Below are positions 61-16,856 of a stretch of 23,297 nucleotides of DNA, in pieces. Where the stretch lies: positions 1 to 23,297 of IMG/VR virus record IMGVR_UViG_3300044799_000193. One strand, written 5' to 3'. Numbering within the stretch: the first letter of the stretch is position 1; each line of letters opens with the position of its first letter. The notes under the pieces are model-generated. The model was not told the DNA's origin. It did no database searches and saw only the letters and a list, made by a program, of their open reading frames with translations. This DNA is from a virus. The position numbers and the translations under genes are program-made.

Positions 61-1314
61 TTAAGCCCCTCCTGTTTGCCTTAACATTGCCGCTATTGGA
101 TTATAGAATGAGGATCCCGGGGTAGTAACCAAGTTCTGATACGGCAAAGATAGATCGGTTGGCAAAGGCGTTGGTGATGCAGCCGGCAAAGAAGCCACCA
201 CACTCGCGCCTGGGAGATTATACTTTCTCTTTAACTGCTCCCAGACCGCATTATCCGATTGGATGTTCGCTCCGCTTGGGGATGTGTCAGCAAGTTCCTT
301 GAACGCCTTCGTGTATCTTGAAAGAAGGTCAACATCGGCGGCGCTTGGCGCGACATTAGGATCTGATTCCTGCGCGTCAAGTCTGGCCGCCAGCGAAGTA
401 AAAGCCGTAAAATCTTTTGCAGGATTGGATTGTTGGTGGATATGACTTCCGCCGATCAGCCTTGATACCACTTGATAGACCGGGCTATAATCCGACTTCG
501 CTTGTATCAGTTGCGGAGCCAGCGTTGCTTTCTGCGTTGATATTTCCGCTTGCTTTGCCGCTCCACCCGCCTTTGTATAAGGCAAAGTAAAATCAATCCC
601 GCCGGTTGGAGCCCCTTGCTGGCCCGGGACTGCGGCAGTCGTCGTTTCCGGCAACCCCAACTTCTTCCTCATCAGCCGGTTATACATAGCCTTGATCTCT
701 GGTGTCGCACTCCCGCTTTCAATAAGCGGTTGCAATGCGGCGATCTGCGTGTCCGGCGAGCCTGCTTCATATTCCGCCCCCTTGAGCTTGGCTTCCCGAA
801 CTGTTTTCTCGGCCTCGGTTTCAAACTCCCCAAGCCGCTGCGTTTGAGCAACATCAAAAGCCGAGCCCGATAAAATACCTTTGCCAGCCATCTCGCTCCG
901 CAAAGCTCTTGCCCTTTCCTGCTCCGCCGGTGATGTCGCTTCGCCTAAAACGCTTTCTCGAAGCGCTGAATAATACTCCGGTGAATACAATGCTGGTGTT
1001 GCTTCCTCTGCTTCTTCGGCGATAGGTGTAGCAACTGGAGTGGTTCCGACTGGAGCCGGAGCTGGAGTCGGCGCTTGTGCGGCTGCCCGAGCGGCTGCTG
1101 CCCCTGCCGTAGCCGCCGCACCATAACCAGGCGTGGGGGCGCTTACCTGTGGCGTTAAGGGAGCCATGATCGTATGCTCTGGGTAAGCAAGTTGCTGTCC
1201 TTGAACAATTAAAGGTATCCTACCCCTTGGTGGTGTTTGTCCCTGCCCATACTTTCTTGGATCATAATACTTGGACCAGTCAACGTTTTCTCCCTGCTTA
1301 ATAAGTGTTGGCAT
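61..1314 (-). CDS. Ala/Pro-rich protein of the phage tail region, function unknown
   Basis: A 417-residue protein without a signal peptide. Residues about 50-110 are a low-complexity Ala/Pro/Thr linker. Residues about 110-220 are charged and probably helical, and the remainder is Ser/Ala/Pro-rich with predicted loops. The ATG follows GGGAGG at a spacing of eight bases. It lies directly downstream of the tail hub-like gene, a place where short-tailed phages often encode internal or ejection proteins, and the helical, linker-rich composition would fit that. No catalytic motif is visible, so this role is inferred from position only. It could equally be a host-interaction protein. Confidence 0.8.
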   Translation of the reverse strand: MPTLIKQGENVDWSKYYDPRKYGQGQTPPRGRIPLIVQGQQLAYPEHTIMAPLTPQVSAPTPGYGAAATAGAAAARAAAQAPTPAPAPVGTTPVATPIAEEAEEATPALYSPEYYSALRESVLGEATSPAEQERARALRSEMAGKGILSGSAFDVAQTQRLGEFETEAEKTVREAKLKGAEYEAGSPDTQIAALQPLIESGSATPEIKAMYNRLMRKKLGLPETTTAAVPGQQGAPTGGIDFTLPYTKAGGAAKQAEISTQKATLAPQLIQAKSDYSPVYQVVSRLIGGSHIHQQSNPAKDFTAFTSLAARLDAQESDPNVAPSAADVDLLSRYTKAFKELADTSPSGANIQSDNAVWEQLKRKYNLPGASVVASLPAASPTPLPTDLSLPYQNLVTTPGSSFYNPIAAMLRQTGGA

Positions 1315-1329
1315 TTTTTTTACCTCCCT

Positions 1330-3243
1330 TTACTGCGACAAAACATCATAATAAATGTTCCCGCCTATCAATGACAGAAAATCCCCGGTATCAATATCGC
1401 TCGAATATCCAACATCCCGCAGGCGCCACCTGAAGAAATTGCAATTTGCGTTCACCGCAAAAGGGACTTTAATATAATTATTATATCCCCCAGAGGTTAA
1501 GTTGCTGGCCTCAACCGTCGTCAATTTTGAAAGCACCCCGTCTTGGTAAAAAGAAACTTCAAGCGTTGTCGTCTGCTTGGTAATGAGCGGTGCCGGGATA
1601 TGGACGAACAGGTCCATCTGATAGATCTGCTTCTTGCGCTTCAGCTCATTAAACATAATATCAGCTGACTGGATCTCCCCGACGGTATTATCCTGGCCGT
1701 AAATGTTGAAGATGGAAAGCTGGTTAGATCGGGTGAACGGCATATAGACAAGCCGCTGACTGGCGGTTGAAGTCGTGCTGGAAACCGCAATTATATTCCC
1801 GACATTGTGAGCTTTATCCTGGCCGATCCATACCTTCTTTGTCGTGTCGTAAGCAAAATGCCTTGCAACTCCCGTTCCGTTATAATCCGGCAGATAGAGA
1901 TGATAAAATCTGGTCAACGGGTCATAAACAGAACACGGGAAACGATTGTCCTGTGCAGATAAATTGTAATAATATATCATGCTCCCTATGTTTATATTGT
2001 AAGCCAATTCTTTTTTGATGGAAGCGCCAATGGAAACATCCTGGAAGCCATTGGTCATTCGAACATCGTCACCACTAAAATAGATCAAGGTGTCCTCGAC
2101 TTTTTGGATCGTCCGGTTAAAGGGGCACCCATAATTCCAGCAGTTCACTTCTTCAATTGGCGGAAGAAATGAAGCGTTATACCGATAAACCGTATAATTC
2201 GTGTCCTTAAAAGCAAACAGATAATCGCCTAATTCAGCCAAAGCTGTTCCATAAACACCATTGCCAGGAACAAAAATATGACCAGTATCGCTTCCAGTCC
2301 AAGTTTCATACGCAGCTGGCGTTACGGAGGAAAGCGCGGCGGAGCAAAATAAAGTTCCATAATTTGACAAAAAAGAATCATAAGCCCATAACCTGTCTTT
2401 CCATTCTAAAACATACGCTCCAGTAATACCAGACAACCCGGCTTCTTGGGCTGTAGTAGAACTTCCCGCCGTAGGATAAGAACCAACAGACCTTAAGGCC
2501 AAACTTACATTGCTGTTTATATGGTCAACCTCATACCAACTGTCAGAAGAACTTTTTCTTATCCAGGCTCCTTTTCCCAATTCAGTTAAAAACAATGTTC
2601 CCCCGCCAGTCACGGTGGCACTCCCGTCAAAAGTCACCGAACCAGTTAAAGATTGCGGAGCCCCGGTATCATAAATAGGGGAAGTTTCATTTGATGTGGA
2701 ATTCGTAGAATTATAAAACCATTTCCTGCAATAACTATCCGGGGAATATAAATATAAGGTAGTCAGTCCTCTATGCGCGTCAACCTGTTTCGCAAACGAA
2801 TAATGATAAGGTGTGAAACTGAAGGCAGTTGTTGTGCTTTGGCTTGTTAAAGTGTGCCAAGCATTATTCGCAATGTCCAGGGCCAACATTCTGCCATCGC
2901 TATATTCCGGGGTGCAAACAACATTCATCAAAAAAGAACTGGCTGTATTTACTTCATCATAATAGAATTGGAACAATCCCCTTGGCCTTCCGCTTCTCGG
3001 CATACTTGCCCCGTAATTGGCAACTCCCGGGATCTTCGTTATCATTCCCAGCCGATCGCTTGAAGTCCTATTGACATCAAGATAGAAATTATCGAGCTTC
3101 ACGAAGTCGTTAGGGTCAGCTGATTGAGGTTGGGAATTAAGAGAAAGTTGGCCTGCTTGATAAATAATCGGCCAGTAGCTTGCGGCATAAGCCGCAGTTA
3201 AAAAGACGCTAAAAAAAAAGATTATTGCGATCAGCTTTTTCAT
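1330..3243 (-). CDS. Tail hub/stabilisation-like protein with Sec signal peptide
   Basis: A 637-residue protein. The mature part resembles the large beta-rich tail proteins of short-tailed phages that join the head adaptor to the tail tip (P22 gp10-like or T7 tail tubular B-like). This is recognised from an early stretch about keeping a list of values, then repeated aromatic beta-strand motifs such as LEWKDRLWAYDS and ELGDYLFAFKD. Unusually, residues 1-20 form a typical Sec signal peptide: MKKL, then a Phe/Ile-rich core, then AYA before the predicted cut. The mature chain also contains many Cys, including a CWNYGC pair, which would suit disulfide bonding outside the cytoplasm. The start is ATG overlapping the TGA of the upstream 34-aa gene. 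Family assignment is moderate; the signal peptide is clear. Confidence 0.82.
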   Translation of the reverse strand: MKKLIAIIFFFSVFLTAAYAASYWPIIYQAGQLSLNSQPQSADPNDFVKLDNFYLDVNRTSSDRLGMITKIPGVANYGASMPRSGRPRGLFQFYYDEVNTASSFLMNVVCTPEYSDGRMLALDIANNAWHTLTSQSTTTAFSFTPYHYSFAKQVDAHRGLTTLYLYSPDSYCRKWFYNSTNSTSNETSPIYDTGAPQSLTGSVTFDGSATVTGGGTLFLTELGKGAWIRKSSSDSWYEVDHINSNVSLALRSVGSYPTAGSSTTAQEAGLSGITGAYVLEWKDRLWAYDSFLSNYGTLFCSAALSSVTPAAYETWTGSDTGHIFVPGNGVYGTALAELGDYLFAFKDTNYTVYRYNASFLPPIEEVNCWNYGCPFNRTIQKVEDTLIYFSGDDVRMTNGFQDVSIGASIKKELAYNINIGSMIYYYNLSAQDNRFPCSVYDPLTRFYHLYLPDYNGTGVARHFAYDTTKKVWIGQDKAHNVGNIIAVSSTTSTASQRLVYMPFTRSNQLSIFNIYGQDNTVGEIQSADIMFNELKRKKQIYQMDLFVHIPAPLITKQTTTLEVSFYQDGVLSKLTTVEASNLTSGGYNNYIKVPFAVNANCNFFRWRLRDVGYSSDIDTGDFLSLIGGNIYYDVLSQ

Positions 3244-3344
3244 TTCAATAAATTCCCCAGGAACATCATAACCCCGGCTATCGAAAGTAACGAAACTATC
3301 AAGAACATGAACATCGTTTTCAGGTCGTTGAGCTTGTTAAGCAT
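3240..3344 (-). CDS. 34-aa single-helix membrane peptide (holin-like candidate)
   Basis: A short open frame, MLNKLNDLKTMFMFLIVSLL and 14 more residues, filling the gap between two exported-protein genes. Residues about 10-31 form one hydrophobic helix flanked by charged ends (Lys/Asp before, Lys at the C-terminus). The ATG follows immediately after the TAG of the upstream gene, and its TGA overlaps the ATG of the downstream gene (ATGA), so it fits exactly into the coupled operon. The independent ribosome binding site is weak, consistent with translational coupling. Size and topology would allow a holin or a small membrane adaptor, but there is no family evidence. A similar arrangement occurs at 16219-16311. 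Confidence 0.6.
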   Translation of the reverse strand: MLNKLNDLKTMFMFLIVSLLSIAGVMMFLGNLLK

Positions 3345-3746
3345 CTAAAAGCTGCAACCAAGTCGCAATGTATTCAAGCCTTCGACTGATGCGGGAATTC
3401 CATCATCATTCCCTTCAATAAAATACCTTGCCCCGATCGAATACGTCGCCCAGAACGGCCCCGACTGCACGCCGAAGCTCCATTCACCCTCCACGCTGTG
3501 ATGGTTCAGGGAAAACGGCGAGGAACGCGGAGCGGAATACACCAGCCCGCCCTCAAATTCAGAAAGATACCAGCAAGAATTTCCAAAAAACTTCCCCGCC
3601 CACTTTGCCTGGTTGAGCTCCAGCTTCGGCAGGCGGTAGGCGTAGGAGCCGTTGATCTGCTTGGTCTGCTCCAGGTAGAGATAGCTCTCCGCGCAGCACG
3701 CCGTAGCCGCCATCAAGACCGCCAGCCCTATCAGCAACTTTTTCAT
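3345..3746 (-). CDS. Exported beta-strand protein ending in Phe (outer-membrane barrel-like)
   Basis: A 133-residue protein from the second in-frame ATG, chosen because GGAGG lies five bases upstream; a start at 3758 would add four residues and destroy this spacing. Residues 1-19 are a signal peptide (MKKLLIG, hydrophobic core, CCA before the cut). The rest alternates polar and aromatic residues in short strands, for example FGVQSGPFWATYSIGARYF, and the chain ends LGCSF. A terminal Phe after alternating hydrophobics is the usual recognition signal for outer-membrane barrels. About six strands would fit, so it could be a very small or multimeric barrel. It lies between tail-fibre and tail-hub genes. 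The role is unknown; phage outer-membrane proteins can block receptors or help lysis, but this is speculation here. Confidence 0.8.
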   Translation of the reverse strand: MKKLLIGLAVLMAATACCAESYLYLEQTKQINGSYAYRLPKLELNQAKWAGKFFGNSCWYLSEFEGGLVYSAPRSSPFSLNHHSVEGEWSFGVQSGPFWATYSIGARYFIEGNDDGIPASVEGLNTLRLGCSF

Positions 3747-3763
3747 CTTATCCTCCATATTAG

Positions 3764-4975
3764 TTAGTTAAGGACATATTGGAAAATCCCAAGCCAACTT
3801 GAGTTACCAACATCGGTGGCACTATACGTAAGGGTGGCGGTTGTCGCCGCCGACATATAGATACCCCCTTGTTGAGCATAATCTATATCTGCCGCCGCCC
3901 CCCCACCCGTGGGCGTTGCCGCACAAGCAATAGGCAGGGTAAAGGTTAGGTTGGTAGCGGTGGGTGTCGCCGCCGTCGGGTCAATTGCCGCCCTAAAACT
4001 GCAAGTTACCACATTTCCCACCCTTAACCAGCACATAGCGTAAGCCGTGCTTGCCGCCACATTGGTCGTATTCGTCAGCGTCGGCGTATAAACCCCACTC
4101 GATACATTAAGTTCGGGGATAAACACATTGGTATTAGCGTCTTTCACCGCAAACTTCTTGGCTGAACGGGCGTAGATGCCCTTGACTACATCATCAAGGT
4201 TAGTTGGTAATACCCCTTTTTTGAAGGAGCATTCGTCGTAGCGAGTTCCGGCTTCGGGGAGATTATTTGCCCCGTTAGAACCACCTAACTGGAACTTACT
4301 CTGTGTGGTTCCCATAGTGCCATCCGCACCCGTCGCTGCTAAGGCACCATTCAAGTATAGTTTTGTGACTACACCAACCTCACGGGCAAATACTATGTGA
4401 TACCAGCCGACAGTAGAGAGAGTGACGGCTCCAGTATCTAAATCTGTAGCAAGGTCAAGAGAACCCTTCAATAACCCACCTGTAGAGAGGGTAACCCGCC
4501 AACCATGATTGGACGCGCCAGTATTCGAGAAAATGTCAACCTGTGCCGCAGGAGTCACATCGGGTATATATACCCACCCACCAACCAGGAAATCGTCAGT
4601 ATCTGCGGTATTTGCCACATCGAATACTATATCTGTGCTTTGGAGATAACCACCAGTTGCTATGGCGTTATACTTTGAGTTTCCCAGCACATCATTAGCC
4701 GCAGTCAACTTTTGAGCCATAATGGTCAGGTCTTTTGATGTGCCAAACTTTGTCCCGGCATAGGCGCTTTCGGATGCCGTATTGGTCACGCTGTCCATGT
4801 TCCAGCCGTAGAGCGTGGTGGCGTTAGGGAAATCCCCGGCCAAGAGTTGCAGGTTACTTAAATAAACCGTGCTGCCCTTTATGTATTCATCTTTCCCCTG
4901 GCCCAGATCAACCGAAGCAAGCGCCGACCCGACCAACAGACCAAGAACAAGAATCCCCAATAATAATCTTTTCAT
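3764..4975 (-). CDS. LamG-domain tail fibre/receptor-binding-like protein with signal peptide
   Basis: A 403-residue protein. Residues 1-20 are a Sec signal peptide (MKRLLLG, Leu/Val core, ALA before the cut). Residues about 115-265 look like a laminin-G/concanavalin jellyroll: strands such as FLVGGWVYIPD, GWYHIVFAREV and KLYLNGALAATG are typical. Residues about 290-403 resemble the beta-rich end domains of phage tail fibres (strand motif WLRVGNVVTCSF followed by a TNLTFTLP strand). The start follows AGGAGG at a spacing of eight bases. These domains usually bind glycans or surface proteins. Together with the neighbouring fibre gene this suggests host recognition, but the signal peptide means export from the producing cell is expected, which is atypical for a fibre. 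Confidence 0.85.
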   Translation of the reverse strand: MKRLLLGILVLGLLVGSALASVDLGQGKDEYIKGSTVYLSNLQLLAGDFPNATTLYGWNMDSVTNTASESAYAGTKFGTSKDLTIMAQKLTAANDVLGNSKYNAIATGGYLQSTDIVFDVANTADTDDFLVGGWVYIPDVTPAAQVDIFSNTGASNHGWRVTLSTGGLLKGSLDLATDLDTGAVTLSTVGWYHIVFAREVGVVTKLYLNGALAATGADGTMGTTQSKFQLGGSNGANNLPEAGTRYDECSFKKGVLPTNLDDVVKGIYARSAKKFAVKDANTNVFIPELNVSSGVYTPTLTNTTNVAASTAYAMCWLRVGNVVTCSFRAAIDPTAATPTATNLTFTLPIACAATPTGGGAAADIDYAQQGGIYMSAATTATLTYSATDVGNSSWLGIFQYVLN

Positions 4976-4988
4976 TTTCTGCTACCTC

Positions 4989-6101
4989 CTAATTTGATGA
5001 TCGCGCGAGTTCGACCCATTTGCTGCCGTTATATAACAATCCAATCGTGTCATTCTGTCCTAAAGTGAAATCCTGGTCCCCGGCCAAGACCAAACCAGAA
5101 TTTGCTATGCTTGCTTCGTCCCGGATTGTAAGGGTGTTCGCGTCGCTGGTCCCGATCAGCGTCACGATCTGCCCAGCTGTCCCAGCTACAATTTCAGGCG
5201 TCGAGTTCAATGTTATCGCTTGGCCATTCCCGCTAACCTGCATAATCCCTGCGGTAACTGTAATGGCGTCAGCCGTCACCAGAAATGTCGTAGCCGATGG
5301 GGTTAAACATAAAGTTTTACCTACGGTCAATTTACCGTTTGTTGTCAATGCCGGGACCAACAGGGAAGTTGCGTCAGTCGTTATTGTCGCTTGCCTCGCG
5401 TCATCAATATAAATATCGATTTGATTATTCCCTTCCGCCGCTTTGCGATGAACCGTGAACTTTTTGCCAGGGCTGGTGTCCCCGGTATTGGTCAAGCCAA
5501 AACACGCCACATCCCCCTTGATGTCGGCCTGCAGGTTGAGCTCCCCGGGCGCCGATCCGTTGGTCCTGATATATCCGTTCCCGCTCGAGTTGTAGATGTC
5601 CGTCGAATTGCCGTCTGTTTCGTCGTTGCATTTGAGTTGTCCATTCCCGGCTGTCACATCCGCCCCTTTGATGACAAGGATCCCCGAAGCGTTAGAAGCT
5701 GTATTCCAAAAGGTAAATGGCTGCAACGACTGATCGGTTGTAAATGTAATCCCGCCAGCAGCTTCAGGCGAGATTGTCATGGCCGGATCCCCCGCTTGTG
5801 TCCCCATCATAAACATTATTTTACCGGCATCGGCAGCCGCAGTTCCCAAGCTTATATTCGTTCCGCTAAAGGCCCCTGCCGTTGCCGTGTTTGTTATTGT
5901 CAAACTTTCGCCGGTAATCCTGCCGGTGCAATTCAAAACTGGCAAGTTAAGCGTTCCAGTCATCGTATCGCCAACCTTCTTGACATAGGCGGTAGTAAGC
6001 GTATTTATTGTTTGCCCACCCGTCTGCGCGGCATATACAAACCCGGCTATCGACGCTAAAACAGCCGAAACAATGAATAAAATAACTATTTTTTTGTTCA
6101 T
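4989..6101 (-). CDS. Phage tail fibre-like protein with signal peptide
   Basis: A 370-residue protein. Residues 1-24 form a signal peptide (MNKKIVI, hydrophobic core, VYA before the cut). Residues 39-54 read YVKKVGDTMTGTLNLP, the motif repeatedly found in tail-fibre shafts of tailed phages. The rest is a long Thr/Gly/Ala-rich beta-strand series, and the C-terminal part (TIGLLYNGSKWVELARSS) matches the usual tip of such beta-helical fibres. The ATG follows GGGAGG at a spacing of five bases. It lies between a small exported beta protein and the LamG fibre, so three adjacent surface-type genes share the same export signal. The fibre motif makes virion function likely; the signal peptide is the odd feature. 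Confidence 0.88.
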   Translation of the reverse strand: MNKKIVILFIVSAVLASIAGFVYAAQTGGQTINTLTTAYVKKVGDTMTGTLNLPVLNCTGRITGESLTITNTATAGAFSGTNISLGTAAADAGKIMFMMGTQAGDPAMTISPEAAGGITFTTDQSLQPFTFWNTASNASGILVIKGADVTAGNGQLKCNDETDGNSTDIYNSSGNGYIRTNGSAPGELNLQADIKGDVACFGLTNTGDTSPGKKFTVHRKAAEGNNQIDIYIDDARQATITTDATSLLVPALTTNGKLTVGKTLCLTPSATTFLVTADAITVTAGIMQVSGNGQAITLNSTPEIVAGTAGQIVTLIGTSDANTLTIRDEASIANSGLVLAGDQDFTLGQNDTIGLLYNGSKWVELARSSN

Positions 6102-6114
6102 TTAAGCCTCCCTA

Positions 6115-6483
6115 TTATCTGTGATTATGCAAAACTTCGACCGTTACCATATTCGTCTTGGAATAAAAATACAATATCTTGCTTGCAGGCATAGGCGTCG
6201 GCAGGTGATCCCAAAGACATTGATCTTGGCCGATCGTCCAAAATGCCTCGGTGGTCGTGCCATCCTTTACCATTCGAATATCTCCGCCTTTTGCCTGGAC
6301 ATTTATGGATACCGTCGGATCGGCAAGGGTCACGGTATAAACCGTTTCCGCTGTCCGCAAAGTTGTATTGTAAATCACCCAGTCCTTTGACAAAGGCCAC
6401 TCTCCACTCATCCTTTCGGCATCTGCCAAAACTCCCGTTGCCACCAAAGCCAAAACCATTAAACCGATCAATGCTTTTCTCAT
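6115..6483 (-). CDS. Small exported beta-sandwich-like protein, function unknown
   Basis: A 122-residue protein with a signal peptide at residues 1-20 (MRKALIG, hydrophobic core, VLA before the cut at Asp). The mature part is about 100 residues of likely beta strands, including ETVYTVTLADPTVSINVQAK and ILYFYSKTNMVTVEVLHNH. Similar compact beta proteins in phage tail clusters are often small decoration or spike-like parts, which would suit its position between the head-tail adaptor and the fibre gene. The start follows GGGAGG. No enzyme motif is seen. Function is inferred from context only. Confidence 0.8.
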   Translation of the reverse strand: MRKALIGLMVLALVATGVLADAERMSGEWPLSKDWVIYNTTLRTAETVYTVTLADPTVSINVQAKGGDIRMVKDGTTTEAFWTIGQDQCLWDHLPTPMPASKILYFYSKTNMVTVEVLHNHR

Positions 6484-6497
6484 CTTAATTCCTCCCT

Positions 6498-7655
6498 TTA
6501 TTCCCGATAACTTAATTTGTCGCCGTAAGCCATTATCCTTGGTATGTTGTCCCTCCCGCCGGTAAATCGGCTCCTGCTCGACTTCTCACTGCTGTTAAAG
6601 GCGGACAGTTCCGCCCAAAGTGCGCTGGCTTGACTTTCATAAATCGCCGCCCTCTTTTCATCCCGGGGCTTGTAAAACTCCGCCAGGGCTTGATAGACAA
6701 GCCCATCTTCATAGTCGGCGTCAATCTCTTGCTCGTAATCGGCATCGTTCACGAACAGTGAACTATCCCGCAAGCCAGTCACAAGGAAATTGTAATTAAC
6801 CAGCGGCGCCGGGCCAAAGGTGATCCGCAACTCCCGCTTGGTAAGATAGAAGGTATCGGTCGCCACCTGCCCGGTGATAGGTGTTTCCAGGGTAAGGGTT
6901 GTGCTGGGAGCGTCGTAAGACTTAACTTTACTGCTTGCCGATCTCGTTGTGTTATAAACATACCAGTCCTTGTAATAATCCTGTATGGCCGCGCTGGTCA
7001 AGGTTGATTCAATGATCGCCGTCGTGCTGGTCGAGGTATCAGCCGCATAGGTCGTCGAAACCGGCTCCCGCGTCAATAATTCATCAAACAACGCCCAGCA
7101 CCAAGGTTCCCCGCTTGCCATCAGCGGATCAGGATACCGGGAATTGATGAACGATAAAGATTTTCTATCAAGTTCGCGACTTGTTCCTGACCGCCGGATG
7201 TCCACGATCTCACCTATCGTTGGCGGGATGGCATAAATGTCCTGGTAAATCTTATAGGAAGCAGCTGATTGAGCCGTGCCCGTATATGGCCGGTCGATTT
7301 CAAGATGGGTCGTATCGGTGAACTTGATGATCTGGTAGCTGTTCGTATCGCTGCCAATTTGTATTTTGCGTCCAGCCATCGCCGCTGTAAAGGTTGTTCC
7401 CGAGCCGGTCACGGTCGTATCAGATACCGCGATTGTCACCGTTCCTGTTGCGTAAGAAGCCAACGTTTCGATGTTCTTTACAACGGTCAGTATCTCAAAG
7501 TTACACTTGCGCACCGCCGCCGCTTTCGCACGGTTGAGATAAGAAAGAAGCTGCGCCCGAAGGGTCGTATCCGAAAACGATGTTATACTGTAATCGGTGA
7601 TTACGCCAGCCTCAAACGCTATATCACGCAGCAGCTCAAAACATGTTCGCCTCAC
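6498..7655 (-). CDS. Head-tail adaptor/connector-like protein
   Basis: A 385-residue protein without a signal peptide. Residues about 70-140 form a beta domain with a pattern common in phage adaptor proteins (GTVTIAVSDTTVTGSGTTFT, then AMAGRKIQIG and RPYTGTAQSAASYKIYQD). The next part begins AIPPTIGEIVDIRRSG and leads to a conserved-looking stretch around SGEPWCWALFD. The C-terminal part is helical and acidic (YEQEIDADYEDGLVYQALAEFY). The domain order and place between capsid and tail genes point to the connector that joins the portal ring to the tail. It differs from its downstream neighbours in lacking an export signal. It begins one base after the HNH-gene stop (TGA). Confidence 0.78.
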   Translation of the reverse strand: MRRTCFELLRDIAFEAGVITDYSITSFSDTTLRAQLLSYLNRAKAAAVRKCNFEILTVVKNIETLASYATGTVTIAVSDTTVTGSGTTFTAAMAGRKIQIGSDTNSYQIIKFTDTTHLEIDRPYTGTAQSAASYKIYQDIYAIPPTIGEIVDIRRSGTSRELDRKSLSFINSRYPDPLMASGEPWCWALFDELLTREPVSTTYAADTSTSTTAIIESTLTSAAIQDYYKDWYVYNTTRSASSKVKSYDAPSTTLTLETPITGQVATDTFYLTKRELRITFGPAPLVNYNFLVTGLRDSSLFVNDADYEQEIDADYEDGLVYQALAEFYKPRDEKRAAIYESQASALWAELSAFNSSEKSSRSRFTGGRDNIPRIMAYGDKLSYRE

Positions 7656-8084
7656 CTAACTAATCCCCCTTTTTTCCTTGTGAAGCTCACAATGATGAAT
7701 ATGGCAAAGCCATCTAACCTCTAAAGCATTAAGATAATTATCATGATGGGCCTCTACCTTGTTATTACCACACACTTCGCAACGACCTCTCACTAATCTT
7801 CCAGTTGCAATTGCATAGTTCGCAAGATAATGTGCATGAGTCTTAATTTTATTTTGATTCCTGTATTTTTCGCAACTCTTTCTCATTTTGTCTTTATTAT
7901 CTTCCGCCCATTTCTTCCTGATATTTTTATGGGTTGTTGCATAATGCCTACTTTGTTCTCGTTTTTTATCTATGTCCCTGCGATACCGCATCCTTCCTGT
8001 CTTTTTCATTTTTTCACGGTTCTCGGCATAATAAGCGCGTTCATATTGGCGTTTATTCTCTCTTTCTTTTTGCGTCAACGTCAT
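7656..8084 (-). CDS. HNH-type homing endonuclease-like protein
   Basis: A 142-residue protein. The first 80 residues are highly basic and charged, with repeated R/K-Y pairs (RAYYAENREK, RMRYRRDIDK) that resemble DNA-binding modules. Residues about 98-135 carry a zinc-binding HNH-like core: C102-x2-C105, then H113-H114-D115, then C127, H130-H131 and H135. This matches the small phage HNH proteins in which GRLVRxxxCEVCG is followed by AHHDxY and RWLCxxHHxELH. Such genes are often mobile and interrupt morphogenesis operons. It is inserted between the adaptor and small charged genes. It could instead have a packaging role, since some phage HNH proteins work with terminase, but it is far from the terminase gene here. 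Confidence 0.85.
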   Translation of the reverse strand: MTLTQKERENKRQYERAYYAENREKMKKTGRMRYRRDIDKKREQSRHYATTHKNIRKKWAEDNKDKMRKSCEKYRNQNKIKTHAHYLANYAIATGRLVRGRCEVCGNNKVEAHHDNYLNALEVRWLCHIHHCELHKEKRGIS

Positions 8085-8087
8085 AAA

Positions 8088-8348
8088 TTATTTCCTCTTT
8101 TTATATTTCCTTTTGGGCTTGTCATTTTTCGGTTGTTCTTTCTTCGGTTCTTCGGCCACCAATGTTTCCACCTTCGGCTCCGCTTTTACCGGCACTTTCA
8201 TCTTTGCTTCCGTTTCTTTTATCTGTTTCCTGATAGGATCTAAATGCCGGGGCGAAAAACAACTGACGCCTGGATACAGCATCCGCGCCATCGCAATAAC
8301 CTTGTTCTCGAACTCGATCACTTTCGGGTCGGGATTTGTTTCGATCAT
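8088..8348 (-). CDS. Small protein with Lys-rich tail, function unknown
   Basis: An 86-residue protein. Residues 1-50 look folded, with the stretch MARMLYPGVSCFSPRHLDPIR; residues 50-86 are a disordered Pro/Lys/Glu-rich tail ending in KRKYKKRK, strongly basic. The ATG overlaps the upstream TGA by four bases (ATGA), so the two genes are co-translated. A basic tail could contact nucleic acid or an acidic partner. No family recognised. Confidence 0.7.
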   Translation of the reverse strand: MIETNPDPKVIEFENKVIAMARMLYPGVSCFSPRHLDPIRKQIKETEAKMKVPVKAEPKVETLVAEEPKKEQPKNDKPKRKYKKRK

Positions 8349-8596
8349 ATCTTTATTTTCCCCTCCTCTATCATTTTTTTTACGCGTTCCCGGATGGAGT
8401 TAAGATAATCAGATGTATAACAGCCGCCTCTATGCTTTTCGGTATTGGCGATCTGAAAAACAACTTTCTCAAATTTTAAGTTCGCAAAAGCTTCCGGGCT
8501 CATTACATCTTCTGGTTTAAGTTCCTTTTCCCCGTCGCCTTCCCCATCGCCGCGCAAGGACTTAACAAGCTCTGCCATGTTCTTCGGTCCGCCCAT
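8345..8596 (-). CDS. Small acidic/charged protein, function unknown
   Basis: An 83-residue protein. A Glu/Lys/Gly-rich N-terminal half (SLRGDGEGDGEKELKPEDV) is followed by a probable helix-rich end, including SIRERVKKMIEEGKIK. The start follows AGGAG at a five-base spacing and is the first gene after the stem-loop region downstream of the decoration-like gene. Its stop overlaps the next start. It shares the motif of a small Cys plus Tyr stretch (GGCYTSDYLNS) with the next gene (GVSCFSPRHLD), which hints at a common fold or duplication; this similarity is weak. No function assigned. Confidence 0.68.
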   Translation of the reverse strand: MGGPKNMAELVKSLRGDGEGDGEKELKPEDVMSPEAFANLKFEKVVFQIANTEKHRGGCYTSDYLNSIRERVKKMIEEGKIKI

Positions 8597-8629
8597 CTTA
8601 ACTCCTTTTTATAGTGAGCCAGTCGAAAT

Positions 8630-8666
8630 CCCCCGAAAGCGGGGGCGCAAGAAAGGCAACCCCCGC
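8630..8666 (-). promoter_or_regulatory. Alternative stem-loops between decoration gene and next gene
   Basis: In the minus-strand RNA, GCGGGGG (8645-8639 complement side at 8660-8666) can pair with CCCCCGC (at 8639-8645), a seven-pair stem with a 14-base loop. The same CCCCC can instead pair with the GGGGG complementary to 8630-8634, giving a six-pair hairpin with a CUUU loop. The two are mutually exclusive because they share one arm. There is no long U-run after either on this strand, so it is not a typical strong terminator. It sits 13 bases after the decoration-gene stop and could reduce read-through or protect the RNA of the capsid genes. Confidence 0.45.
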
Positions 8667-8678
8667 TCTCGTTTTTAC

Positions 8679-9278
8679 CTAATAACAGCCCCTCAAAAAA
8701 ACCTCGATCGTGCCTACGGCATTATCCGTAAATCCTTCCATAGCGATCGGCCCCGGAACGGTAGCAAGCGCTTCGCCGCTGGCATCATAAGTCAGCTTTG
8801 TCAAAGCAGCTCGCCCGTGAACCAAGGCTTTACCCCCGGCAGTATTTACGATCCCGGTCAGCAAGTCACCGATCACAATATCCGCGCCGGTGCCTTCGAC
8901 TGACGCGACACAAAGACCAGCCACCTGGATCCAACCGTATTCACCCACGGAAATAGCCGTATCGCCGTCAGAGTCGCAATACCAAATACCAGCGAAATTC
9001 TGAAGCCTTGAAGTCGCTTCATAACTTGACCTCACGTTATAACTCTCGGTGGACGAGTTAATATACCAGCAAGGATTTTTCGCTTCTGTGGTCACTGCGG
9101 CATTATAAACCCAGCGATAGATATTCCCATTGTTGTCAAATCCCAATTTCCCATACTGTTGAGTCTGGCTCCCTTGAGCCTTATACTGACAAGCCGGGAT
9201 CGGGCTGACCTTCGAGGCCGACGCCAGGGAAGCTACCAAGAAAACAACCATCAATGCAAAGAAAATTTTGTTTCTCAT
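8679..9278 (-). CDS. Capsid decoration-like protein with signal peptide
   Basis: A 199-residue protein directly downstream of the major capsid gene, the normal place of a decoration (head-stabilising) protein. Strands such as YGKLGFDNNGNIYRWVYN, EYGWIQVAGLCVASV and a C-terminal IEVFLRGCY fit the small beta-rich decoration proteins that ride on HK97-type capsids. Residues 1-21 are a clear signal peptide (MRNK, Phe/Val/Leu core, ASA before the cut). The mature part has five Cys (C30, C70, C101, C123, C198), high for a cytoplasmic phage protein and compatible with disulfides. The ATG follows AAGGAG. The decoration role is moderately supported by context and pattern; the signal peptide is clear. 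It could instead be a free exported protein made at capsid levels. Confidence 0.82.
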   Translation of the reverse strand: MRNKIFFALMVVFLVASLASASKVSPIPACQYKAQGSQTQQYGKLGFDNNGNIYRWVYNAAVTTEAKNPCWYINSSTESYNVRSSYEATSRLQNFAGIWYCDSDGDTAISVGEYGWIQVAGLCVASVEGTGADIVIGDLLTGIVNTAGGKALVHGRAALTKLTYDASGEALATVPGPIAMEGFTDNAVGTIEVFLRGCY

Positions 9279-9299: not shown

Positions 9300-10316
9300 T
9301 TACGCCGTTGTGAAGTTGGCAATGTGGTAATGCGTTCTGCGGTCAGAGAGCAACAGATTCCCCAGCTGTCGAATAAAGCTGGTCATCAAGTTGGTCCCCG
9401 GAACAAGCTGGAAGGGATCGACCTCCATGTTAGCCCCTTTCAGTATTCCATATTCGATGCCCTCATCGTTGATCCCGATGATGGTTCCGGCGGCGAGCGA
9501 TGATTCAAACATACAGGTCATGCCGCCATAGCGAAGTCCTGTAAAGCCTGCTTCCTCAACATCTGGCGCGGGAGCTCCGCCTGCCCTGGTGAGTTGCTGA
9601 ATTGCAACCATCTGGCTGTCGAGCACGCCATAGGTTGTTTCATCCATCAACGCCAGTTTCGGCCTTGAAACTCCAACCGTTGCCTTGACCCGATAGGTCG
9701 TTAGATAGGCTTTGAGATAAGTGGCGAGCGAATTACCGGAGGCGTTCTTATAAACATTCGCCCAGTTCGGATATGCAGCCGAGGAAATTCCGCCGATCGC
9801 ATCCGCTGTCGGAGCCAGCGCGATAAGCGTCAGCAGTGAGTTCCAGTCGTCAGCGCCTTCACTGCCGGCCGTTGCGAACATCTGGCTTGTGACCAGGTTC
9901 AAAACGCCGACATTGGCCTGCTTGAGAAACGACTGCGTGCAACCAATGAGGTTCGTCTTGCTTGAGCCTGAAACATCAATGTCGAAGCGGTCGATCGGGA
10001 TCGGCCCTCCGAGCTCCTTAATGTCGTAATACGCCCGATCGCCAATGTTATTGGTGGTCAGGTTGAAGGTCGCTCCTTTACCGAACGCCTTCAAATTTGG
10101 GTTGGTGATCAGCATCAAGGGAACCTCGAACCTTGAGCCGCCATCCAACTCGCGGGTAAACTTCTTGCCTTTCGGCTTCAGCCCACTGCCGGTGTCAACT
10201 TGCTTGCCAAGCAGCCACCACGGAAGCGTGGCTCTGGTAGCTATGACATCCTGAAACATTTTTTGCAGCACATTCGGATTGTTCAGAATGGCCGCAACCG
10301 TTGAATAGTTTGCCAT
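9300..10316 (-). CDS. Major capsid protein, HK97 fold
   Basis: A 338-residue protein with the typical plan of podovirus-type major capsid proteins: a helical N-arm (NPNVLQKMFQDVIATRATLP), a central strand and spine region, the segment GGISSAAYPNWANVYKN that often precedes the peripheral domain, RPKLALMDETTYGVL in the axial domain, and GFTGLRYGGMTCMFESSL before the C-terminal strands ending GNLLLSDRRTHYHIAN. It lacks a signal peptide. It lies directly between the scaffold and the decoration-like gene, and the ATG follows AAGGAGGAG. No protease gene is seen, and the N-arm is not preceded by a fused delta domain, in line with a separate scaffold. Confidence 0.9.
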   Translation of the reverse strand: MANYSTVAAILNNPNVLQKMFQDVIATRATLPWWLLGKQVDTGSGLKPKGKKFTRELDGGSRFEVPLMLITNPNLKAFGKGATFNLTTNNIGDRAYYDIKELGGPIPIDRFDIDVSGSSKTNLIGCTQSFLKQANVGVLNLVTSQMFATAGSEGADDWNSLLTLIALAPTADAIGGISSAAYPNWANVYKNASGNSLATYLKAYLTTYRVKATVGVSRPKLALMDETTYGVLDSQMVAIQQLTRAGGAPAPDVEEAGFTGLRYGGMTCMFESSLAAGTIIGINDEGIEYGILKGANMEVDPFQLVPGTNLMTSFIRQLGNLLLSDRRTHYHIANFTTA

Positions 10317-10326
10317 GTTCTCCTCC

Positions 10327-11349
10327 TTACAGATTAGCCGATTTTACAAGCGCTTCGGCCACAGCGCCTTCGTCGTGGAATTTGATCTCCGGGGGTATGG
10401 TCTTGCCAACCGTGCCGCTTTCCGATTTCTGCCCGGCCTTCTTTTGCAACCGCGCAATCGTTTCCTTCTCTGCCTGCTTCTTCAACATCGGTAAGCCGTG
10501 ATCGGCAAAATACGCTTTGACCGCATAGGTCAGCGTTACCTCATCCCGTTCGACCGTATCGAGGATCTCCTCAAGCTCCGGGGGAATGAAATCAACACCG
10601 TTCTTCTTCATTTCCCGGACTTGCTTGATCCAGCCGCCAAACAGCGGATACTTTTCGCAAAGGACTTTTTCCTCGTCGGAAACCTGCTTATCAACCTGCT
10701 CCTCAAGTTCGGCGCGCTTCTGCAAATCTGCCTTTTCGTCCTCAAGCTTTCGCCTCTGCTCAATGTTTGAAATGAACCCATTGAGCTTCTGCTCGATAGC
10801 AGCAAGCCTCTTGGCCTCGGGAGATAATTCTTCATCACCGGCAAAGTCATCACCTTCGCCTGTCACTTCCTTGAACTTCTTCCCTGCCCTTATCGCTTGG
10901 ATAAGCGGATGAGCCTCCATTTCCCGATGGTAACTTATCAGGTCTTTGGGGCTATATCCCTCCAACGCTTGCTCTAAAGCCTTGCGCGTTTCCACTTCCC
11001 GCTGGATCCTCTTTCCCGCCGTCAGGAACCGCTGGTAGATATAATCGTTGATCTCTTTGTCCGTCAGGTCGGTCTTATGCTTAAGCTCTTGTTTCGCTCG
11101 CTCGATCGCCTGCGCCATATGGTCAACGACTTGCTGATTCTGCTCTGCCGTTTCAGCGAACTTGGCCGGTCCTTCGCCTGGCTTTTCGCCTTCGGCTTTT
11201 TCTTCGGGTGGGGTTTCAGCTTTTTCCTCTACCAGCTTTTCCCCTTCCTCGAAGCTTAAGGACCCGCTTTTCTCCGCTTCGGCAATAAGCTTTTCAGCCG
11301 TTCCCAACTCATCACTCGATACGAAACCCTTTTCTTCTTTTAGATCCAT
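10327..11349 (-). CDS. Scaffolding protein
   Basis: A 340-residue, highly charged protein rich in Glu, Lys and Ala. A disordered acidic N-terminal part (residues 1-80) is followed by long helices; residues about 185-235 have coiled-coil spacing (RLAAIEQKLNGFISNIEQRR, then LEDEKADLQKRAELEEQ). The C-terminal part is short and basic-acidic mixed. Such a protein immediately upstream of the major capsid gene is the usual internal scaffold that templates procapsid assembly and then leaves. No protease motif is visible. The start follows GAGGAG at a ten-base spacing, overlapping the end of the Cys-rich gene region. Confidence 0.83.
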   Translation of the reverse strand: MDLKEEKGFVSSDELGTAEKLIAEAEKSGSLSFEEGEKLVEEKAETPPEEKAEGEKPGEGPAKFAETAEQNQQVVDHMAQAIERAKQELKHKTDLTDKEINDYIYQRFLTAGKRIQREVETRKALEQALEGYSPKDLISYHREMEAHPLIQAIRAGKKFKEVTGEGDDFAGDEELSPEAKRLAAIEQKLNGFISNIEQRRKLEDEKADLQKRAELEEQVDKQVSDEEKVLCEKYPLFGGWIKQVREMKKNGVDFIPPELEEILDTVERDEVTLTYAVKAYFADHGLPMLKKQAEKETIARLQKKAGQKSESGTVGKTIPPEIKFHDEGAVAEALVKSANL

Positions 11350-12017: not shown

Positions 12018-12445
12018 TCCCTTGCCCTCCCAAAACTCAACTGCTTGTAAAGCCCATCTGCATAAGCCTTTTCCTCTCGCGTCAATTTTGCCTCGGAGTG
12101 CAAGCATTCCTCTCCCTCGATGTCCGGCAACCGCGTGCCACGGTTCTGTTTTACCCACCGCTCAACCGATAAATGCGCCTTCTTCCAATTACGGAATCGC
12201 CGCTCGGCATTATTTCTTTCAATGGCACTGTTGATAATTTTTCCCGGATCATACATCACACAGACATCGATCGTATTGAACGCCCGGGCGAATGTCCGAT
12301 AACCGAACATCAAACGCAGTTTCAATACGATCCGTGGCAAGGTAAAAGTCCAAAAGATTTCCCATTCCTTGCGATAATAAGCTCCGGCCTTTCCCTCGAA
12401 CACCCAGATCAACCATTGCAGGAATAGGATTATCCGCTTACGCAT
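12002..12445 (-). CDS. 147-aa membrane-associated basic protein of head module
   Basis: A 147-residue, Arg-rich protein. Residues 1-15 (MRKRIILFLQWLIWV) form a short hydrophobic or amphipathic helix, too short and basic for a clear signal peptide. The middle is basic (TLPRIVLKLRLMFGYRTFA), and the C-terminal half is helical with many Arg/Lys. The start follows GGAGG at nine bases and overlaps the portal gene end by eight bases, so it is co-expressed with the portal. A protein in this position may be a small head or connector protein, but no family is recognised. Confidence 0.72.
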   Translation of the reverse strand: MRKRIILFLQWLIWVFEGKAGAYYRKEWEIFWTFTLPRIVLKLRLMFGYRTFARAFNTIDVCVMYDPGKIINSAIERNNAERRFRNWKKAHLSVERWVKQNRGTRLPDIEGEECLHSEAKLTREEKAYADGLYKQLSFGRARECFGG

Positions 12446-14375
12446 AGGTGCCGGCCTCCTGCGCTATTCGCGCTGCCGTCATCGGGGGTTTAACCGCTTG
12501 CGTAACTGCTTCCGTGGGAGTGACCGCCGCTGGGAGCCCGCCAGGTGGGGCAGGCGTAGGCGCTGGCGCACCCGGAGCAACCGGCGGAGCAACTGCGTTA
12601 GCCGTTGCCTCATATTGCGCAACTGCCGCCTTATTAAGCTTCTTTACAGGATCCTTGACCCCTTCCGCCTTCAGCACGTCCTTGGTGTTCTCAACTTGGT
12701 CAACAAGCGGGTTCTGCGAGAGCAAAGAGTATCTCTCCTTGGCCTCTTTCTTCTTAACTTCCACATTCTGTTGGGCCATATCTCCAATGTCCACCGAAAC
12801 CGCATACTTGCCCTGGATGGAACTCTTGTCCCAAGGAATGAATTGGCTGCCAGCGTCCCCAGATATCTTCTGGATCCGCTCGGTATCGGCATTATTCTGG
12901 AGTAGTTCGATGAACAGGTGCATATTGTCAATCGTCCAGTCAACGATGGCGTCTTTCTTGAACTCAATGCGGAGGTTCTGCGCGGTTTGAAGCCCAACAA
13001 TCTCCGAGGCAGTCCGCTTGGCTTGGGTAATCAGCCCGCGCTGGAAATCTGCCAACCCGGATTGACGTTGTAAGAGTTCGTCAATAATCCTGATAAATTC
13101 GTTATAGCTTTCGGAAAAAGCGAAATCATTCAGATTCTTGACGAATGAACTCAAGTCCTTGCCCTGCGGGTTGTCCACCCAGACGATCCCGGATTGGTCC
13201 ACATCCTCAAGCTTCTGCCGACTATCGGCGTCCTTTATGGCGGTTTTGTCAGCCAGGAAACTCCGGTTCAGCGTGATAAGCAGGTTCGTCAGCTTCTGCA
13301 CCAAGAGCGTCTTGGTCATAACCAAGCTCTCATAAGCACGAAAATCAGGCGTGGGATAGAACCCGGTCAGGCTCTCCCCTGCCGCCAAGATCTTGCAGGG
13401 ATAACTTTTAAGCCCCCAGAGCCAATCATCATATCGGATCGGATAATCCAGCCCATCAACGAACGCCACTACCTTGCGCTTCTTGATGTCCCAAATCTCG
13501 TAAAGGATGGACCGCTCAAGGTCCAGAAGTTCGCCCTGATAATCCTCAATGAATTTGGTGTCCTCTTTTGACCCTTCGTATTTCAGCTTGCTGGTTCCCT
13601 TGAGGTCCTTGACGCCCCTGTAAAGCCGGCTGGCCTTGAGCTCCTTCGTCGGCTTATAGAACCGGAAGATGATATACTTCGCATCCTTGAGATCAATTCT
13701 GGTTGCTTCAGGATCAGGCAGCAAGTTCAAAGGATTAAACCATTCGCAAGTCGCCTCGTCAGCCAACAACTGCAGGTTCATGCTCTCCCCGGCAAGCTCC
13801 GTATTCCAACCCCACTTACAAACAGCAAAATTCAGAGGTATCATTGTTGCCGTGCATTTCTTTGCTATCTGCTTCCAATTTATGCTGTCTGATTTCAACA
13901 GAGTGTTGATTACATTCTCCAAGAGTTCAGGATTGGGTTTTATCGGAACCTGCTCTATGATCGGTTTGCCATCCGGTCCGGTCATAGTCAACCCAGTCGT
14001 CGGGTCGATTTTTGGCTGGTCAATCATAACCTTTTCGATTAAGCTCTCAATGGAAATATGGGGGTTCTGGAAATACAAGTTCGGCTTGAGCGTTTCAGAG
14101 CTAACGAAAAACTCGTTGCAGAAGATCCGATACATCTTCTCGGGATCATATTCAGTATCTCCCGGCGGACTGAACTCCTTGCCGTTCAGCGAACCTTCGA
14201 GATACCCGAGATACCGCTTGGCATAAGCTTCAACGAATTTCTTCTTGTGATGGCGTTCGGCATTGGTGATCATGTTCCGGTATTCAGATACTTCCTCGGA
14301 AGGCATTTCTATCTTGTCGTCGGCTGGGCCTGTCATTGCATTAAATATCTTCTCAACGAATCCGGGTAATTCCAT
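12438..14375 (-). CDS. Portal protein
   Basis: A 645-residue protein immediately downstream of the large terminase. It has the layout of podovirus/P22-type portals: a helical N-terminal wing, the segment EWFNPLNLLPDPEATRID (residues about 211-228) that often marks the portal body, a long stem-crown part with TKTLLVQKLTNLLITLNRSF (354-373), then KRTASEIVGLQTAQNLRIEF (453-472), which matches the typical ATEI-type helix of such portals. Residues about 590-620 are an Ala/Pro-rich linker. The protein would form the dodecameric ring through which DNA is packaged. The ATG follows AGGAG. Identification rests on order, length and these motifs. Confidence 0.87.
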   Translation of the reverse strand: MELPGFVEKIFNAMTGPADDKIEMPSEEVSEYRNMITNAERHHKKKFVEAYAKRYLGYLEGSLNGKEFSPPGDTEYDPEKMYRIFCNEFFVSSETLKPNLYFQNPHISIESLIEKVMIDQPKIDPTTGLTMTGPDGKPIIEQVPIKPNPELLENVINTLLKSDSINWKQIAKKCTATMIPLNFAVCKWGWNTELAGESMNLQLLADEATCEWFNPLNLLPDPEATRIDLKDAKYIIFRFYKPTKELKASRLYRGVKDLKGTSKLKYEGSKEDTKFIEDYQGELLDLERSILYEIWDIKKRKVVAFVDGLDYPIRYDDWLWGLKSYPCKILAAGESLTGFYPTPDFRAYESLVMTKTLLVQKLTNLLITLNRSFLADKTAIKDADSRQKLEDVDQSGIVWVDNPQGKDLSSFVKNLNDFAFSESYNEFIRIIDELLQRQSGLADFQRGLITQAKRTASEIVGLQTAQNLRIEFKKDAIVDWTIDNMHLFIELLQNNADTERIQKISGDAGSQFIPWDKSSIQGKYAVSVDIGDMAQQNVEVKKKEAKERYSLLSQNPLVDQVENTKDVLKAEGVKDPVKKLNKAAVAQYEATANAVAPPVAPGAPAPTPAPPGGLPAAVTPTEAVTQAVKPPMTAARIAQEAGTYA

Positions 14376-14376
14376 T

Positions 14377-15783
14377 CTACACTCCTATCGGCTGCCGAGC
14401 CTTGAAGGGCCGGAGTTGCTTGAAATACTCGTATGAGTTTGGTTTCACTTCTTGTTTCGGAACAATCGAATTAACTGGCCTTGAGATAAGAAAATATCTT
14501 GAGCTCATTAAAGCGTGATCCTCACCGCCTTCCTTCACGATAAAGCTGTTGTAAGGGTCGAAAATCGCCGCTGGTATCTGCTGACGAAGGTTTTGGCATA
14601 TAGCTGTAATTTGCCAGTAAGGTTCTCCGTCAGGAGCCACAGCCATCCAATTCCTCATCGCTTGATAACCGTTCTTCTTGTCGTTATTCGCCCTGACAAA
14701 ATTTATGCCGTGATTGGAAAACTCGGCCAGAACGCTATCGCCTCCAGCTTCCTTGGCAGTCCAAAGCGGGTGCTTATTCCCAGCGCTCGGATCCGCATAC
14801 CGGGCAGATACCGTATAGTCCTTTTCAAGCAACTTTATATCGGTCGCCCACTCCTTCGGATATTTGCGGTTCCCATACAGCTCTGCGAAGGTAATGATCC
14901 GCTGGAAGTCCGCCTCTGGCGTGTGAATTCTACTGACCGCATGCAAGTGGTAGCAGAAAGCATCGGGGTCAAAGCCCCAATCCATCGAGCCGTAAATATC
15001 ATCGGCAGAGGTCGGCAAATAAGAAGCGAGGCCATGCCTGCCTTCGCGCCATTCGGAGAAGAATTGGCCTTTGAAGATATTCCAATCGCCGTCCCGATAA
15101 GCCTTCCGCATATCTTCCGGCAAACTATCAAGCGTGCGAAGATATGAGCTCGACAGGTAAGGATTATCAGCAGCGGTGGCCTGGATGAACCCAAACTGGT
15201 CTGCTTCCTGCTCGTTCTCATCAAAGAAGCGATCAAGGAAAAGCGACTTGACCCAGGCATGCCCAATATCCCCGGGATTAGTTGCGGCGATGAACTTGTT
15301 ATCATCAATGCCCGGCCATCGGAGCCGGGTCCGCAGGAAATCAAAAACTTCGCGCGGGTTTTTAGTCAGTTCATCAACACCTTCATCAGCAAATTCAGCC
15401 GATTGATATTTTGAAGGATTATCCAAGTTACGAAAGCAAAGAACGCCGGAGCCGTATTGCGGATGAAGCACAAATTCGTGATCTGTTTTATTGAGGATCC
15501 CAAGCCATTCTGGGAACTCAAACGCCACCTTGCTGATTTGTCTATCCTCAAGCGCCGGGTAATCCTCGCAGAAAAGCCCCGAGCGAACTCTCTTTAATCC
15601 CCGGGCCCAGAACTCAAGCAAACGAAATAACAACGTCCAGCGAAGCCATCTTGATTTTCCTCCACCCATTGCGCCGCCATAAAGCAGATACTTCAACTGG
15701 CGCATGAGCTTAAACGCTTCTGCTTGCTTCGGCGTAAAGTTCGCCAGTTCCTTAAAACTCACTTTCTCGTATTCTTTACTCAT
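14377..15783 (-). CDS. terL: Terminase large subunit (packaging ATPase-nuclease)
   Basis: A 468-residue protein. The N-terminal ATPase has Walker A GGAMGGGKS at 36-44 and a Walker B-like SAEFADEGVDEL at about 128-139, followed by the ATNPGDIGHAWVK coupling motif. The C-terminal RNase H-type nuclease shows acidic sites at D268 (GSMDWGFD), D331 (YADPSAGNK) and D422 (GGEDHALMSSRY). These are the hallmark residues of terminase large subunits, which pump DNA into the procapsid and cut it. It overlaps the small-subunit-like gene by ATGA and precedes the portal, the standard order. All key motifs are present, so the packaging enzyme appears intact. Confidence 0.95.
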   Translation of the reverse strand: MSKEYEKVSFKELANFTPKQAEAFKLMRQLKYLLYGGAMGGGKSRWLRWTLLFRLLEFWARGLKRVRSGLFCEDYPALEDRQISKVAFEFPEWLGILNKTDHEFVLHPQYGSGVLCFRNLDNPSKYQSAEFADEGVDELTKNPREVFDFLRTRLRWPGIDDNKFIAATNPGDIGHAWVKSLFLDRFFDENEQEADQFGFIQATAADNPYLSSSYLRTLDSLPEDMRKAYRDGDWNIFKGQFFSEWREGRHGLASYLPTSADDIYGSMDWGFDPDAFCYHLHAVSRIHTPEADFQRIITFAELYGNRKYPKEWATDIKLLEKDYTVSARYADPSAGNKHPLWTAKEAGGDSVLAEFSNHGINFVRANNDKKNGYQAMRNWMAVAPDGEPYWQITAICQNLRQQIPAAIFDPYNSFIVKEGGEDHALMSSRYFLISRPVNSIVPKQEVKPNSYEYFKQLRPFKARQPIGV

Positions 15784-16218: not shown

Positions 16219-16311
16219 TCACCGATAAAACAACTTTTGGATATGGCTTTCAAGAAGCATTGCCACCACAAAACCGACAAGAAACCCAAGAATGAAAATC
16301 CAGAAACCCAT
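16219..16311 (-). CDS. 30-aa single-helix membrane peptide
   Basis: The sequence MGFWIFILGFLVGFVVAMLL and ten further residues ending KLFYR forms one long membrane helix with a basic, probably cytoplasmic, C-terminus. The same frame is open further upstream, but that part lies inside another gene. The ATG at 16311 shares its A with the TGA of the upstream exported-protein gene (TGATG), a coupled start. With the 34-aa peptide at 3240-3344 it shows the same plan: an exported beta protein followed at once by a tiny membrane peptide. It may be a holin-like or membrane-adaptor peptide; no family evidence. Confidence 0.58.
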   Translation of the reverse strand: MGFWIFILGFLVGFVVAMLLESHIQKLFYR

Positions 16312-16856
16312 CAGAAATACCAGCGTCCTTCCAAAAATGCTGTGCCAAGATTTGTAGAGGCACTCCCGGACATAATCGGGATAAGTGACGCGCCGATTGA
16401 AAGAGAAGGTGTCAAATATTGCTCGGCGTTTATAACAAAGCCGAACATGGAATTGGCATCGAGTAAGACCAGTCCGCCAATATTTAATTTTGTCCAGGCG
16501 TCTTTGCTTTGCCAAAGAAGCCCGTCAACCTTTAAAAGCGCGGATTGGTTCCCGGCAAGGGAGTTATAACCCACCTGGAGATTTATCCAATCATTGTTCC
16601 AACCAAGGGCGGAGTAGTTGCCAAGATAGCCGATATAAAAATTGCGCGCGGGGTTTTCTTTCGGTTTCTCAACCAACTTCTCGATCGTTTTCGTTTCGAC
16701 ATATCTCACAACTTCGGGAGCGGGTTTTTCTGAAACCACTTCAGGGGCTTTTACGGGGCGGAGTTTCTGCGGCCGGGTATCCTCATACCAAGCGGCACCG
16801 GCGAAACAAGGGAACGCGATCGACAGGACCAGCAAGAACACAAGCAGTTTTCTCAT
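16311..16856 (-). CDS. Exported beta-strand protein ending in Phe (outer-membrane barrel-like)
   Basis: A 181-residue protein from the ATG at 16856, chosen because AGGAGG lies eight bases upstream; three more residues could be added at 16865 at the cost of that site. Residues 1-19/21 form a signal peptide (MRKLLVF, hydrophobic core, CFAGA). Residues about 22-65 are a Pro/Lys/Glu-rich linker. Residues about 70-181 alternate hydrophobic and polar residues (FYIGYLGNYSALGW, WTKLNIGGLVLLD, SLSIGASLIPIM) and end LGTAFLEGRWYF, a terminal Phe typical of outer-membrane barrels. It is the first gene after the sigma-like regulator, ahead of the terminase genes. It could change the cell surface during infection, for example to exclude other phages; that is a guess. 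Confidence 0.82.
   Translation of the reverse strand: MRKLLVFLLVLSIAFPCFAGAAWYEDTRPQKLRPVKAPEVVSEKPAPEVVRYVETKTIEKLVEKPKENPARNFYIGYLGNYSALGWNNDWINLQVGYNSLAGNQSALLKVDGLLWQSKDAWTKLNIGGLVLLDANSMFGFVINAEQYLTPSLSIGASLIPIMSGSASTNLGTAFLEGRWYF

Follow-up and report, generated by a model that had tools for sequence, protein, structure and literature searches.

Predicted Sec signal peptides on cement-, fibre- and hub-like genes in a tailed-phage genome fragment

Introduction

The accepted view is that tailed phages finish their particles in the cytoplasm. The filamentous phages (Inoviridae, e.g. M13) possess virion proteins with Sec signals and assemble at the envelope; however, they are not tailed and lack the procapsid, terminase and portal, all of which are present in the DNA analyzed here. 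Phage lysis proteins (SAR or Sec endolysins and spanins) also pass through the Sec pathway before lysis, but their role is in lysis and not in the particle. Signal sequences are discussed in the open-access literature for lysis proteins and for filamentous phages. The first-pass annotation of this DNA knew of no described phage family with Sec leaders on a set of virion-like proteins, and we likewise found no description of such leaders on tailed-phage virion proteins in the open-access literature, which is weak evidence, as most subscription papers and preprints lie outside this scope.

The closest tailed systems are podovirus types with a phrog_9953 capsid, namely Bradyrhizobium phage ppBjS10J-1, the sequences L009 and L010, and prophages of Elusimicrobiota. 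They share the capsid family and, broadly, the gene order terminase, portal, scaffold, major capsid protein (MCP) and then adaptor, and L009 and L010 also have a cement-type gene after the MCP gene; however, none of the examined virion genes of this group carries a signal peptide. Podoviridae sp. ct8d5349 from Manatee Spring, which is not a close relative, resembles our locus in having a leadered fibre-like protein as its last structural gene, but it has this one leader alone and its tail genes are T7/epsilon15-like.

Results

Organization of the window

The window is the entire stretch of 23,297 bases of IMGVR_UViG_3300044799_000193 that was analyzed. It is open at both ends and contains 28 called genes, the major ones all on the minus strand, as are all the genes given below in the form 9300..10316. 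The large terminase, the portal and a phage capsid protein identify it as a tailed dsDNA phage, probably a short-tailed one of podovirus-like type. Membership in the Inoviridae, which would go with a Zot-like ATPase, small exported coat proteins and no terminase, was rejected, as the window has a terminase, a portal and an MCP. From the terminase on, the gene order is a packaging and head block, followed by a cement-type gene, small genes together with an HNH gene, an adaptor-like gene, five leadered genes and a leaderless protein of 417 residues.

The packaging and head block comprises the terminase large subunit (14377..15783; phrog_979, E 8e-22, and PF04466), the portal (12438..14375; phrog_12082, E 1e-9), a scaffold-like protein (10327..11349) assigned from position and composition, and the MCP (9300..10316; phrog_9953, E 4e-14). 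An MCP scan of 2.9 million viral contigs returned a single relative, L002, which is 43% identical in the MCP and 45% in the portal and the adaptor. The adaptor or tail protein (6498..7655), which starts with GTG, aligns with L002:9980-10708 over 238 residues, and its matches to tail PHROGs fall within residues 65-139. The 417-residue protein (61..1314), beyond which the contig ends, is by position a possible internal virion (ejection) protein; it resembles L010:8026-9222 by eye, and a family search gave no match. No tape measure or tube gene was seen in the window, the contig being open at both ends.

Several neighboring genes deserve mention in their own right. An HNH endonuclease (phrog_2340; 7656-8084), possibly a homing enzyme, lies in the interval from the cement gene to the adaptor, where L002 has none. 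At 17551-19910, a group-1 glycosyltransferase adjoins a radical-SAM/SPASM protein, flanked by replication genes and RusA; the radical-SAM protein shares just 21-24% identity with its nearest relatives in genomes. A small protein with a match to sigma-70 region 4 (16906-17157) is possibly a phage regulator.

Seven genes start with Sec-type leaders

Leaders were detected by a home-made Sec/SPI rule, which demands a positive n-region, a 10-residue core without charged residues and a small-x-small site. Exactly seven of the 28 genes pass it, with starts at 16856, 9278, 6483, 6101, 4975, 3746 and 3243, the same seven starts that the first-pass annotation had listed; as it had also noted, the terminase, portal, scaffold, MCP and adaptor have no leader under this rule, and neither does the 61-1314 protein. 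The range given at the head of the annotation, 1330-9278, does not cover the seventh gene (16311..16856), which lies upstream of the terminase. Each of the seven leaders has Lys or Arg in the n-region, a hydrophobic core of at least 10 residues with a mean Kyte-Doolittle (KD) value of 2.9-3.4 over 10-mers, and a small-x-small site. They match the design of Sec/SPI signal peptides and would, on that basis, direct export and be cleaved.

The rule is specific. None of 5139 internal segments from the window's own proteins passes (score at least 4.0), which rules out chance hydrophobic N-termini; taking 1/5139 as an upper bound of the false-positive rate, the probability of at least seven passing genes among 28 is ~1e-20. 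Similarly, none of 73 control virion and packaging proteins passes (from P22, epsilon15, T7, the Bradyrhizobium phage, L009 and L010), and in an E. coli benchmark the rule picks up 11 of 14 proteins known to be exported while rejecting all 33 others. The core KD values of 2.9-3.4 compare with 2.2-2.8 in the 11 recognized E. coli signal peptides.

A purine-rich motif resembling a Shine-Dalgarno (SD) sequence stands shortly upstream of every leader ATG, the weakest being GGGGAA of the hub candidate. In the cement, fibre, LamG and hub genes, no in-frame ATG, GTG or TTG with a good SD follows just past the leader, which makes misread starts unlikely. Given the specificity of the rule, the SD motifs at the leader ATGs and the lack of good later starts, it is most likely that these genes truly begin with the leaders. 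Lipoprotein signals (SPII), marked by a lipobox with Cys at +1, were rejected for six of the seven leaders, which have no L-[AS]-[GA]-C motif; the 3345 protein has ATAC-C, a poor lipobox. As the nucleotide likeness between leaders is weak (z up to 3.5, within reach of a shared signal design), there is no clear case that they were copied from one another.

The cement gene and its homologues

The first leadered gene after the head block encodes a 199-residue protein of the cement/decoration type (8679..9278) with the leader MRNKIFFALMVVFLVASLASA and a predicted cleavage before SK. It lies directly after the MCP gene, as do its counterparts in L002, L009 and L010. The L002 homologue (L002:9160-9756; 35% identity) keeps a leader of its own, MKKFFVGLFAFAIILGLSAAVMA, cleaved by prediction before E and preceded by AGGAGG; its letters have diverged from those of the window, and the n-h-c design is the same. 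L002 is a fragment that ends within the adaptor and covers this one leadered gene, and its MCP, portal, terminase, scaffold-like gene and adaptor have no leader under the rule. Its large terminase (L002:2829-4127) is seemingly unlike that of the window, in contrast to the ~45% identity of portal, MCP and adaptor; an exchange of the packaging motor may be the reason.

A profile scan added two leaderless homologues that begin at the mature domain, L009:5851-6357 (E 1e-10) and L010:3220-3693 (E 9e-9). The L010 member matches PF09956 (Phage_cement_2) above the cut-off, and also the head-decoration PHROGs phrog_29386 and phrog_122. The window protein itself has no direct match in Pfam or PHROG, and its family link runs via the L010 member; through this homology it is assigned to the phage cement/decoration lineage, and it is the best-supported virion-type protein with an added leader. 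Leaderless homologues with starts aligning downstream had been named in the first-pass annotation as evidence that would count against genuine leaders. Such homologues exist in L009 and L010; yet the SD at the leader ATG and the separate leader of L002 point to a leader gained in this lineage rather than to a misread start. The window protein has five cysteines and its L002 counterpart none, a pattern that does not point clearly to folding in the periplasm, and the AlphaFold model (pLDDT 38) is too low in confidence to use.

Fibre-type, hub-like and barrel-like proteins

Downstream of the adaptor, a small protein of 122 residues (6115..6483; leader MRKALIGLMVLALVATGVLA, then DA) precedes the fibre gene; it has no family match and no phage match by tblastn. 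The fibre-type protein (4989..6101; 370 residues; leader MNKKIVILFIVSAVLASIAGFVYA, then AQ) is 36% identical in its C-terminus to a tail fibre of a Manatee Spring podovirus, and has a weak Phage_depo_C match below the cut-off. The next protein (3764..4975; 403 residues; leader MKRLLLGILVLGLLVGSALA, then SV) is a LamG-like fibre whose C-terminus shares 56-64% identity over 47-68 residues with a minor tail protein of a Stenotrophomonas phage, and 42% over 116 residues with a podovirus protein that adjoins its stabilization gene. The LamG fold itself found no confirmation in Pfam.

The 637-residue protein at 1330..3243 (leader MKKLIAIIFFFSVFLTAAYA, then AS) is a candidate tail hub, a call made from its place ahead of the possible internal virion protein and from ..DFVKLDNFY, a short motif near the N-terminus. 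Comparison with the hub families (P22 gp10 and phrog_5107) by BLAST, HMM, hhalign and a PDB sequence search gave no significant match, and its AlphaFold model (pLDDT 33) is too poor to use. The proteins at the hub position of L010 (6165-7691) and L003 (17974-19554) match phrog_5107, which PHROGs names 'amidase' (lysis); as these proteins look like tail hubs by position, the name may be wrong.

The remaining two leadered proteins (3345..3746, leader MKKLLIGLAVLMAATACCA, then ES; and 16311..16856, leader MRKLLVFLLVLSIAFPCFA, then GA followed by a Pro-rich spacer) are small proteins with F as their last residue (..GRWYF in the latter), and have neither a family match nor a phage match. They are probably outer-membrane beta-barrels and not virion parts, and outer-membrane barrels normally carry a leader. 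The first-pass annotation had placed seven leadered genes in the morphogenesis region; since these two look like barrels, the virion parts number five at most. Its view that some of them are virion-like is upheld by the cement lineage and by the two proteins with phage-fibre C-terminal domains, but the tail hub gained no support from sequence comparison.

Distribution of leadered virion-type genes

Scans of viral contigs with the terminase, portal, adaptor, hub and fibre returned L002 alone or no match. The portal found no relative in a scan of genome contigs, and none in 297 genomes from the phylum of a Terriglobia genome (G003). MCP relatives occur in eight of 295 genomes of one phylum, to which an assembly titled Elusimicrobia belongs. 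In these eight Elusimicrobiota prophages, two of them on short contigs, no gene near the MCP carries a leader, and the genes that follow the MCP are arranged similarly to those of L010 and L003.

A single leadered fibre does occur elsewhere. In ct8d5349 (MW202898), a 900-residue fibre-like protein (35778-38486) has the leader MFNKILIAIVFIITCLNAFS, then DG, with its own SD; it is encoded by the last structural gene and has the only strong leader among the virion genes of this phage. The annotated start lies 15 codons upstream and hides the leader, so single leadered fibres may be commoner than annotation shows. A set of leadered virion-type genes including a cement gene was not found elsewhere in the contigs and genomes searched.

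Discussion

In the window, outer or late-added parts carry leaders and the core head and packaging genes do not, and the leader of the cement gene is conserved in the diverged L002. We regard it as an evenly balanced proposition that the leaders are working, cleavable Sec signals on otherwise normal phage genes and that the outer parts are added outside the cytoplasm. The fuller scheme, a tailed-phage lineage that would build and fill its heads in the cytoplasm, send cement, fibre and possibly hub through Sec, and complete the particle outside the cytoplasm, is proposed tentatively, at slightly under an even chance. Because the leader cores are very hydrophobic, export would probably be co-translational (the SRP route), taking the proteins through Sec before fibres and cement could fold or bind. 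Signal peptidase would then cut the leaders, and the mature proteins would wait in the periplasm. The leaderless MCP, scaffold, portal, terminase and adaptor would build, fill and close the heads in the cytoplasm; once lysis opens the inner membrane, the filled heads would encounter the stored fibres and cement, probably with the hub, and be completed there. The two barrel-like proteins would likewise pass through Sec on their way to the outer membrane and would be ordinary phage surface proteins. Late addition is feasible, since P22 tailspikes, lambda gpD and T4 Soc can join finished heads in vitro. If the 1330-3243 protein is a true head-closing hub, its export would leave closure to the adaptor alone, which counts against the scheme.

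That the leadered proteins are virion components is itself deduced from sequence, and the main rival, which we consider unlikely though still a serious contender, holds that they act at the cell surface or in the periplasm. The fibre and LamG proteins would then mask receptors or glue cells and debris together, the barrels would reside in the outer membrane, and the protein of the cement type would have been re-used. Two of the seven leadered proteins indeed look like outer-membrane proteins, a leadered fibre-type protein is also the last structural gene of podovirus ct8d5349, and surface-altering genes such as the gtr genes of P22 are frequent in phages. However, the cement gene belongs by homology to a capsid-cement lineage and keeps its place directly after the MCP in four sequences, and the 23-kb contig contains no second, leaderless cement or fibre gene.

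Other readings of the leaders fare worse. Uncut leaders might anchor the parts on the inner membrane, with particles maturing there; the cores do exceed recognized E. coli signal peptides in hydrophobicity, but the positive n-region would place the protein body across the membrane from the cytoplasmic heads, and a small-x-small site follows every core, so we judge this improbable. Equally poor are the prospects of the leaders being hydrophobic N-termini that remain part of the particle (for trimerization, packing or membrane activity, for example) or are trimmed by a protease of phage or host. P22 gp7, annotated with a 20-residue N-terminus removed by the host OpdA, offers a precedent; however, seven unrelated bodies share the Sec n-h-c order, and leaderless cement homologues exist. 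An artefact of start choice or a chimeric contig is very improbable: the downstream-aligning starts of the leaderless homologues would fit a wrong start, but this explanation is already contradicted by the SD sites at the leader ATGs with no good later starts, by the continuous operon-like order of genes on one strand, and by the leader on the same gene in the independent contig L002.

Should the cement and fibres be exported first, as the export-and-completion scheme has it, both the order and the place of assembly would differ from those of tailed phages as currently held. Virion parts with disulphide bonds or glycosylation would become possible, and the exported fibres could, in addition, block receptors of the dying cell. 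Should the exported proteins be no part of virions, the conversion of a capsid-cement gene to an exported product in two diverged phages would still represent a notable change of use.
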